Below, piece after piece: positions 7,991 through 13,312 of a stretch of DNA of 19,567 nt (position 1 is the stretch's first letter; every line of letters starts with the position of its first letter). The position numbers and the translations under genes are program-made. The stretch covers positions 1-19,567 of the forward strand of contig DEVX01000071.1 of the NCBI GenBank assembly GCA_002363515.1, in the 5' to 3' direction. The stretch comes from Candidatus Saccharibacteria bacterium UBA3225 (lineage in GTDB: Bacteria; Patescibacteriota; Saccharimonadia; Saccharimonadales; Saccharimonadaceae). The notes under the pieces were generated by a model, which ran no database searches, had not been told where the DNA came from, and worked only from the letters and a program-made list of their open reading frames with translations.

Positions 7991-8347
7991 CAAGCTCGTT
8001 GACGTAGTCGCTGGCCTTTTGGCGAGAGGAAAGTCCGGGCAGCATAGGACACGGTAGTTGCTAACGGCAACCGCACGCAAGTGTAGGAAAAGTGCCACAG
8101 AAACTATACCGCTTCAGTTGTTTAACTGTTGTAAGGGTGAAAAGAGTGGGGTAAGAGCCCACAGACCTTGGTGGTGACATCGGGGTGGGGTAAACTCTAC
8201 CGGCTGCAAGGAGACCTAGATACCGTGGTCCGCGGATGGTCGCTCACCGCTAGATCCCGTGAGCAATTGCGGGGCTAGATAGATGACTGCGGGCTTTATT
8301 ATATTTATATAATAAAGTCACAGAACCCGGCTTATTATACGAGCTTT
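7991..8347 (+). ncRNA. rnpB: RNase P RNA
   Basis: This is the catalytic RNA that removes 5' leaders from pre-tRNA. The conserved cores are clear: GAGGAAAGTCCGGGC (from about 8025), CACAGAAAC, AGGGTGAAA followed by GTGGGGTAAGAGCCCAC, and at the 3' end AGATAGATGACTGC and ACAGAACCCGGCTTA. Helix P1 forms from AAGCTCGT (7992-7999) and ACGAGCTT (8339-8346) and fixes both ends at about 357 nt. The domain order is that of the ancestral type A RNA. It has its own promoter and terminator. Confidence 0.97.
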
Positions 8348-8357
8348 TATGCCTTGG

Positions 8358-11347: not shown

Positions 11348-11713
11348 GGGGCTGACAAAGCTTAGACGGATTATTAACAGTATGTATGCGGATCGATTAA
11401 CACCGTAAGTGTTTTCATAAATGCAGACAAAACTGCTAGTAAGCATGTAGCTTATATGCCTGCTTACGCAATGGCCTAAGATATACCTAGGTCTGTTATC
11501 CTCGGTGAGATACCATAACTTCGGATAATATCATACACATGGTAATAAGGTTGACCTTCTGACAGTGGTTAGCACGAAAATTTAGTCATGACTTCGCTGA
11601 GTTTTGTTTATTCCAGCTCTAGTGAGTTTGTCGAGATGAAAGAATGAACTATGTCCGTAGATTGCATGCCAGAGATAGTTCGGACCCGGAGGCAGTATCC
11701 GGCAGCTCCACCA
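11348..11713 (+). ncRNA. ssrA: tmRNA (one-piece)
   Basis: tmRNA rescues ribosomes stalled on mRNAs without stop codons and tags the product for proteolysis. The acceptor stem forms from GGGGCTG (11348-11354) and CAGCTCC (11703-11709), with the CCA end encoded (11711-11713). The GGGGCTGACAAAG start and the TTCGGACCCGG-like T arm near the 3' end are typical. The tag frame most likely starts at GCA 11423 and ends at TAA 11477-11479, coding ADKTASKHVAYMPAYAMA after the charged alanine. A helix CCTA/TAGG encloses the tag stop, as in other tmRNAs. The tag ends Ala-Met-Ala rather than the common Leu-Ala-Ala. Confidence 0.95.
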
Positions 11714-12461: not shown

Positions 12462-12490
12462 TTGACTTTTATGCGAGTATTTGCTATATT
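12462..12490 (+). promoter_or_regulatory. Strong promoter of the 12497 RNA
   Basis: TTGACT (12462-12467) and TATATT (12485-12490) are separated by 17 bp, and TGC precedes the -10 (extended -10). This is among the best promoters in the window, yet no gene of normal size follows for 450 nt. Confidence 0.75.
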
Positions 12491-12701
12491 GAGAATGTGC
12501 CTGAACAAAAATAAAAAGCACAAAAATAAACAGAAGAGGATGTGTAGTGAATTTGGCGTAGTAATAGCTTATTTCTAGCCATAAATTACACCTAGGAGTA
12601 AGCTAAGCTCCGCCAAACACTTACCGAGAGGTAAGGAGCGTAGAGCGCGTAAACCAAAGATACGACTAGCACTTTATATACCCGAAACAGAGGAGTACGA
12701 A

Positions 12702-12758
12702 ATGGTTTGCAAGGACTATGCCTCTCTATACGAGAGGCGGTCAATAAAGCCAGGGTAG
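12702..12758 (+). CDS. Possible 18-codon leader peptide inside the structured RNA
   Basis: ATG 12702 opens MVCKDYASLYERRSIKPG, ending at TAG 12756-12758. A consensus GAGGAG (12690-12695) lies 6 nt upstream, the best ribosome binding site spacing in the neighbourhood. The codons overlap the GCCTCTC/GAGAGGC hairpin. AGAGG at 12689-12693 can instead pair with CCTCT at 12721-12725, so ribosome access and hairpin formation would exclude each other. No amino acid run suggests a specific attenuator. Confidence 0.3.
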   Translation: MVCKDYASLYERRSIKPG

Positions 12759-12840
12759 AGATCAAGTTTGCGGCTATAAGTAATGTATATATTTGCCGGA
12801 TAAACCCCTCTACCTTTGGCCCAGATATCTTGTGGGGAAG

Positions 12841-12885
12841 AAGTATTTTTCAGTTTGTCATTATAATTGCGCAATACTTATTTTT
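12841..12885 (+). terminator. Possible terminator of the 12497 RNA
   Basis: AAGTATT (12841-12847) and AATACTT (12873-12879) form a 7-bp stem over a 25-nt loop, followed by A and five T (12881-12885). It is AT-rich, so only moderately convincing. Confidence 0.4.
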
Positions 12886-12931
12886 CGCGCGATAAGCGAA
12901 GGGCAGTAAAAGAAAATCACTAGTGCTTTTG

Positions 12932-12940
12932 TGCTATAAT
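12932..12940 (+). promoter_or_regulatory. Extended -10 promoter, leaderless start of the 12947 gene
   Basis: TGC-TATAAT (TATAAT at 12935-12940) ends 6 nt before ATG 12947, without a Shine-Dalgarno. A palindrome CACTAGTG (12918-12925) sits at the -35 side and could be an operator. Confidence 0.6.
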
Positions 12941-12946
12941 TCGCTT

Positions 12947-13312
12947 ATGGATAAGTTATTGCTTACGATCAGTATTACGGCATTCTTCTTTCTTGTAGCA
13001 ATGATGTTTTTGACGAGCCCGAGTGGGGTGGGCGCTTTAGGGGTATTTGTCCTTTTTATACTAGTGTATGTTCTTTGTCTAGGGCTTGCAGTTTTTGGCT
13101 GCAGGCTATTTTTTTACTTACGGAAACGTTTAAATAAGGCGAATGGTGGCAATATAAAGAAGAAGAGCTATTATTATGGCCCAATTATTGCATTAGCGCC
13201 GCTATTTTTGTTGATTGGCCAGACTTTTGGCAGGTTGAGCATAGTGGAAGTTATAGCGGTATTTTTCTTGGAAGTCTTACTTTGTTTCTTAGTTTCTCGA
13301 AACGTCTTGTGA
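12947..13312 (+). CDS. Small multi-pass membrane protein, unknown family
   Basis: From ATG 12947 the gene encodes 121 residues with about four membrane segments (approximately residues 4-23, 29-55, 76-95 and 98-118), joined by a basic cytoplasmic-type loop (LRKRLNKANGGNIKKKS). An upstream GTG at 12923 would place the start codon before the TATAAT box and is unlikely. The stop is TGA, and its TGA also forms the TGn extension of the next gene's -10 box. I do not recognise a family. The position directly before the TraG/VirD4-like cluster suggests a membrane partner of that system, but this is inference. Confidence 0.65.
   Translation: MDKLLLTISITAFFFLVAMMFLTSPSGVGALGVFVLFILVYVLCLGLAVFGCRLFFYLRKRLNKANGGNIKKKSYYYGPIIALAPLFLLIGQTFGRLSIVEVIAVFFLEVLLCFLVSRNVL

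Follow-up and report, generated by a model that had tools for sequence, protein, structure and literature searches.

A structured RNA of roughly 345 nt encoded in a Saccharibacteria genome carries, in the loop of its hairpin P2, a 15-nt sequence that is exactly antisense to the start of infA, whose product is translation factor IF1. We consider it probable that this is a separately transcribed, multi-domain RNA whose P2 loop pairs in trans with the 5' end of the infA mRNA, lowering IF1 synthesis. The RNA lies in the window, as we call the whole 19,567-nt stretch of DNA analysed (contig C69 of genome G000), and infA of the same genome is found on another contig (C83, locus L232). An earlier note on this DNA had described a large candidate structured RNA here; its complementarity to infA, which that note had not seen, is the new point of this report.

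The RNA has the tmRNA on one side (Table 1) and, on the other, a small gene with its ATG at 12947, which we take to encode a membrane protein. Both the RNA and this gene lie upstream of a TraG/VirD4-like gene, a name that is partly our own reading. The promoter that the earlier note placed ahead of the RNA is present and reads TTGACT-17-TATATT. A consensus scan alone is weak in this DNA (10 promoters found against 7.4 expected); in 34 same-genus sequences, the -35 hexamer and most of the -10 are among the best-conserved upstream columns. The next gene has its own promoter, also as claimed, with TATAAT at 12935-12940. Its -10 box ends 6 nt before the ATG, and near-leaderless genes may be common in this genome. 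The RNA may form its own transcription unit, as judged from the conserved promoter; a conserved terminator was sought by a scan and not found. The window does hold a terminator-like hairpin (12841-12879, followed by a T-rich tail), which is weak at -4.8 kcal/mol in the terminator scan, and the best candidate lies elsewhere in the two closest relatives. Since sequence conservation fades past about 12840, we place the 3' end there and no longer at 12886, the boundary given earlier. The 18-codon ORF embedded in the RNA, another element of the earlier description, was given up as well: one of 93 relatives has both an uninterrupted frame and a start codon where the alignment puts it. A looser check (ATG within about 20 nt, then 18 open codons) finds such frames in 12 of the 93, or in 39 if GTG and TTG are counted as starts, at differing offsets, and we reject the coding reading. 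The neighbouring tmRNA has a low Rfam score (69 bits), ARAGORN reported nothing for it, and we read its tag as ADKTASKHVAYMPAYAMA.

Table 1. Features of the window; percentages give the share of pair cells holding standard pairs in the covariation set, and fractions the pairs with both-sided changes
Feature	Position	Strand	Remarks
RNase P RNA	7992-8350		Rfam scan of window
tmRNA	11348-11713		Rfam scan of window
Promoter of the RNA: TTGACT, 17 nt, TATATT with TG before it	12462-12490	+	Sequence; conserved columns
Structured RNA	12497-12840	+	5' end inferred from promoter, 3' end from loss of conservation
Helix S1: TTTGGCG 12552-12558 / CGCCAAA 12611-12617	12552-12617	+	88.8%; 2/7
Hairpin P2: 12566-12577 / 12593-12604	12566-12604	+	99.9%; 5/11; presents the antisense loop
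Antisense loop, CTAGCCATAAATTAC	12575-12589	+	Exact antisense to infA positions -7 to +8; 12579-12589 predicted open, CTAG 12575-12578 predicted in P2 stem
Pseudoknot helix: GCTC 12607-12610 / GAGC 12643-12646	12607-12646	+	99.2%; C-G to U-A in 6/65
GNRA-capped hairpin: TTACC-GAGA-GGTAA	12621-12634	+	Sequence; family-variable region
Helix P3: 12649-12654 / 12705-12710, inner 12661-12667 / 12691-12697	12649-12710	+	83.7 to 95.7%; 10/11
18-codon open reading frame embedded in the RNA	12703-12759		
Hairpin P4: GAC, TGCCTCTC / GAGAGGCG, GTC	12714-12742	+	100% and 97.9%; 5/11
Helix P5: 12749-12760 / 12808-12820	12749-12820	+	74.1% and 65.9%; encloses P6
Hairpin P6: 12766-12774 / 12795-12805	12766-12805	+	100% and 98.1%; 6/8

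The strong fold claimed for this region is borne out by the computed folding energy of 12497-12886, -112.5 kcal/mol (z = -5.19), which none of 100 shuffles equalled. The GNRA hairpin of the earlier description exists as well; it is present in the window and replaced in other sequences. The reverse strand of the same segment also beats its shuffles (z = -3.48), so single-sequence folding does not fix the strand; the promoter and the covariation with G-U pairs fix it better. We assessed covariation in the 65 of 93 distinct sequences that were 215-300 nt long and below 90% identity, using a proposed structure of 63 pairs, one pseudoknot included, which makes 3952 pair cells. Standard pairs fill 91.9% of these cells (79.5% in shuffled alignments), and both-sided changes occur in 40 pairs and 560 cells, compared with 31.2 pairs and 188.5 cells after shuffling, so that the helices do covary among relatives. 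When partners were slid by 1-3 columns, both-sided changes fell in 14-26 pairs and 57-116 cells; the structure has an advantage over this control, since both the window sequence and an alignment of the same family had been used to derive it. The helices of P5 are the weakest, in a part where the alignment between genera is poor or uncertain. A hairpin GCG-TAGA-GCGC was dropped for the GCTC/GAGC pseudoknot because its GCG is not kept in three loci (L061, L067 and L083).

At gathering cut-offs, no family of Rfam 15 matched over the RNA, either in the window or in ten relatives. A permissive search of the region gave two chance-level matches, far under cut-off, and in eight diverged loci it returned the tmRNA neighbours and sub-threshold matches only (for example RF00125, which lay outside the RNA and scored 35.3 bits, its cut-off being 80). 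Together with the strong conservation and covariation, this upholds the suggestion of an undescribed structured RNA family of the lineage, and the RNA appears to be a new family. Among the open-licence PMC matches listed (for example the best 8 of 1,273 and the best 12 of 267), no title or abstract dealt with this RNA or with RNA control of infA in Saccharibacteria.

It is very improbable that the RNA is instead a diverged SRP RNA, 6S RNA, second tmRNA or second RNase P RNA. The place of SRP RNA is vacant, in that RF00169 exceeded its cut-off in none of 100 Saccharibacteria genomes (G000-G099; one weak match, in G063), a search in which 9 of 14 controls did so; however, the SRP protein M domain was also found in none of 31 Saccharibacteria genomes, and in 14 of 14 controls. 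RF00013 (6S RNA) gave no match in the window's own genome, which is 86% complete. Neither RF00023 nor RF00010 matched over the RNA, and both tmRNA and RNase P RNA are already present elsewhere in the window. According to a passage of PMC8080830, many CPR bacteria are without two SRP subunits; the absence of SRP in Saccharibacteria agrees with that statement and is not a new kind of finding.

In a DNA search of 100 genomes, strong matches to the RNA, with E no higher than 6.9e-32, came from 43 of the 45 genomes in its genus, the window's own included, and one genome of a second genus matched at E 1.1e-12; G029 and G040 gave no match. With nhmmer at E 1e-3 it was matched in 123 of 124 loci, 80 of which had been collected through the TraG neighbour, and removal of duplicates left 93 distinct sequences. 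A model of the 3' domain (R1), run on a choice of 80 genomes with E limited to 1, had matches in 23. The weakest of these, such as G074 and G198, look like chance; others place the RNA in further genera and, in the case of G077 (E 4.3e-5), in one other family. The conservation among relatives that the earlier note had asked about is therefore found, with the RNA present but diverged in other genera. A survey upstream of the TraG orthologue covered 26 genomes outside one genus, g1 (25 of other genera and one of a second genus, g2). An exact GAGCGGTCA together with GCTCCGCC (at most one mismatch) was seen 60-300 nt before the orthologue in 20 of them, and an exact GAGCGGTCA in a similar setting, judged by eye, in four more (G162, G343, G127 and G144). 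In G256 the survey was cut by the start of the locus, although the R1 model does see the RNA in this genome, and G327 had no RNA motif upstream of its TraG orthologue. The RNA-less genomes G029, G040, G168 and G198 are also missing the TraG orthologue, a 34-37% identical paralogue being all that was found. A tree of the N-terminal part of TraG, which carries no support values, groups g1 and g2 with three further genera, g75, g76 and g11. One genome, G178, holds two RNA copies on different contigs (L272 and L293), the second with an A-to-G change in the loop.

The antisense loop is the best-conserved loop of the RNA and its longest nearly invariant stretch in g1 and g2. Of 93 RNA sequences, 89 carry the exact 15-mer and four differ from it by a single A-to-G change each. 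We searched 294 genomes of the class for TTTCTAGCCATAAATTACA, allowing two mismatches, and 94 had a match (16/16 of g1, 72/75 of g2 and six others); several have a second site, whose opposite strand is mostly the start of infA (TGTAATTTATGGCTAGTCAA...). We located infA with TIGR00008 and read its start wherever a listed place allowed this, which was the case for 70 g1 and g2 genomes. The start is GTAATTTATGGCTAG in 68 of these, GTAATCTATGGCTAG in G149 and ATAATTTATGGCTAA in G256. Positions -7 to +8 hardly vary, -8 to -13 do, and the third letter of codon 2 is kept in 70/70. In 67 of the 70 a -10-like box ends 6-7 nt before the G of this start, so the infA transcript should begin at or next to that G; the predicted mRNA would have a leader of 7-8 nt with no Shine-Dalgarno sequence. 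For nucleotides 12579-12591 of the loop, the predicted probability of being unpaired is at least 0.84, and the computed energy of the 15-bp duplex between loop and infA is -19.9 kcal/mol.

The 15-mer is exact only in infA and the RNA in 10 of 12 genomes; of the others, G149 has exactly two, equally changed copies and G034 has a third gene with the 15-mer. This third gene, which encodes a predicted protein of 240 aa (MASKTKINSTKKSLKSF...), has the infA-like start GTAATTTATGGCTAG in L163 and L162 (G034 and G035). The site is exact in G034, with near-exact copies in G035 and G011, and the gene is a possible second target in that sublineage; being lineage-limited, it was set aside as a general one. 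Start sites within two mismatches of the 15-mer belong to one gene in G250 and one in G183, which we read as groEL and a NusB-like gene, respectively, and which were rejected as targets because each occurs in one of the 12 genomes. In the window genome, the longest Watson-Crick run with infA is 15, whereas none of 20 other start sites in the window exceeds 9. With G-U pairs allowed, one of these 20, which belongs to the gene at 12947, attains 15 as well; run length alone is thus not proof, and we put the weight on conservation and on changes at both sites.

Sixty-six of the 70 genomes have an RNA with an intact loop. The other four all keep infA: in G040, G168 and G198 neither the RNA nor the neighbouring TraG orthologue was found, and in G256 the loop is degenerate. 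The common sequence stands on both sides and pairs 15/15 in 62 of the 66, G178 included, and the remaining four keep the pairing. In G149 the RNA has CCATAGATTAC and infA has GTAATCTATGG, the same change at both sites, and they pair 15/15. G246, G251 and G015 each have one A-to-G change in the RNA that faces a U, leaving one G-U pair. Outside g1 and g2, genome G254 (g75) shows a two-sided change at a position other than that of G149 (infA GTAGTTTATGG, loop CCATAAACTAC), with one mismatch further along and 14/15 paired. G149 and G254 are the two compensatory cases found.

These observations bear on two explanations that do without RNA pairing. One, the least probable of those concerning infA, is chance complementarity between two independently conserved sequences. 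Both sequences are AT-rich, infA leaders are conserved in the class anyway, and 2000 shuffles of the RNA against infA, with a mean run of 7.0, reached a maximum of 14; against this, the exact 15-mer pair is identical in 62 of the 66 genomes with both partners while the rest keep pairing, the conservation of infA stops upstream at the limit of the pairing, and both-sided changes occur in G149 and G254. Hardly more credible is that the loop and the infA start share the site of a DNA-binding regulator. A 15-bp element near the infA transcription start, common to the RNA gene, would look alike, and an altered regulator could alter both sites. However, the element is in antisense orientation and lies some 80 nt into the RNA gene, where it forms part of the loop of a covarying hairpin. 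Moreover, each of the four loop variants is an A-to-G change, which preserves G-U pairing with RNA and has no reason under a DNA site.

The predicted pairing of the RNA with infA is clade-specific. Of 30 RNA-bearing genomes outside g1 and g2, 29 (28 of other genera and one of another family) show no infA match above the non-cognate background. Their longest runs average 6.8 with G254 left out, compared with 6.65 for non-cognate pairs, and the next best is 9, in G137; since non-cognate runs of 11 do occur (2/870), the case of G254 rests on the placement in the loop as much as on length. The match is also absent from g76 and g11, which belong to the same TraG clade, and may have been ancestral to part of the clade and lost in these two, or may have arisen repeatedly. 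A related TGTAR-like motif near the -10 box opens many infA leaders of the class (L170-L199, L295-L320), including families where the RNA was not found. The genomes whose match is at background likewise have infA leaders of a related, conserved type, so leader conservation must have a cause beyond this RNA.

In other genera the P2 loop is longer, and GCACCTT is found in 16 of the 20 loci with both core motifs (L354-L376); inspected by eye, RNAs from outside g1 and g2 often have CCTTAACAATT in their 5' part. These loci bring in the most serious alternative, to which we give roughly one chance in three: that the structured RNA is real and has another main job, such as binding the ribosome or a protein, with infA pairing being a side function of one clade or even an aid to initiation. 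That the core is kept in genera where infA complementarity is lacking means that its function predates, or differs from, infA pairing, and the GCACCTT in the P2 part points the same way. Yet no other nearly invariant stretch of the RNA in g1 and g2 is as long as the antisense loop, which also tracks the changes of infA, and it is difficult to see how pairing across the start codon would aid initiation. Looking for partners of the GCACCTT loops, we searched 28 infA loci from outside g1 and g2 for AAGGTGCG; there were two matches, neither of which was assigned. More speculatively still, the RNA could be a regulator used throughout the order, its folded core fixed and its targeting arm, P2, swappable; in the clade to which Candidatus Nanosyncoccus belongs, the arm would switch IF1 and with it the general translation capacity of the cells, and GCACCUU arms would act on other partners elsewhere.

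Under the reading that we prefer, antisense pairing with infA, P2 would display its loop for pairing in trans in the clade of the window, comprising g1, g2 and, with a changed sequence, g75. The loop would pair with about the first 15 nt of the infA mRNA, namely the whole leader of 7-8 nt, the start codon, codon 2 and part of codon 3. CTAG, 4 of the 15 nt, is predicted in the P2 stem and would have to open. On a near-leaderless mRNA with no Shine-Dalgarno sequence, such pairing should make the start codon, and the 5' end as well, inaccessible to the ribosome. The result would be antisense control in trans, probably repression, with less IF1 made in the cell, and the other domains may fold, stabilise or switch the RNA, perhaps in answer to a signal.

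Most known trans-encoded antisense sRNAs are 50-250 nt long and use linear seeds, often with Hfq. The Saccharibacteria RNA resembles them in having what looks like a separate gene, a short complement to the start of an mRNA encoded elsewhere, and compensatory change. It differs from most of them in its length (about 345 nt), in its covarying multi-helix fold with a pseudoknot and in a target that looks near-leaderless; the effect of sRNAs on leaderless mRNAs is listed as unknown in a passage of a review of leaderless translation (PMC9031893). The RNA likely works as a trans-acting antisense RNA. The antisense RNAs of plasmid copy-number control and toxin-antitoxin systems present their antisense sequence in the loop of a stem-loop and are encoded opposite their targets. 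Recognition through a loop is common to them and the present RNA, whose target, unlike theirs, is a chromosomal housekeeping gene on another contig. OLE, ROOL, GOLLD and raiA are large structured RNAs of bacteria whose roles are known in part or not at all; they share with this RNA the size class, strong covariation and lineage restriction, whereas the Saccharibacteria RNA has no Rfam match over cut-off and a specific RNA target is visible.

Saccharibacteria are tiny epibionts with genomes near 1 Mb, and to our knowledge little is known of their regulation at the RNA level. The family described here, which Rfam 15 does not cover in the sequences scanned, is ready for a covariance model and provides these organisms with a widely conserved structured RNA for which a concrete target can be predicted. 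Our results suggest that a core translation initiation factor may be controlled in them by an RNA loop that would cover the extreme 5' end of a near-leaderless mRNA.
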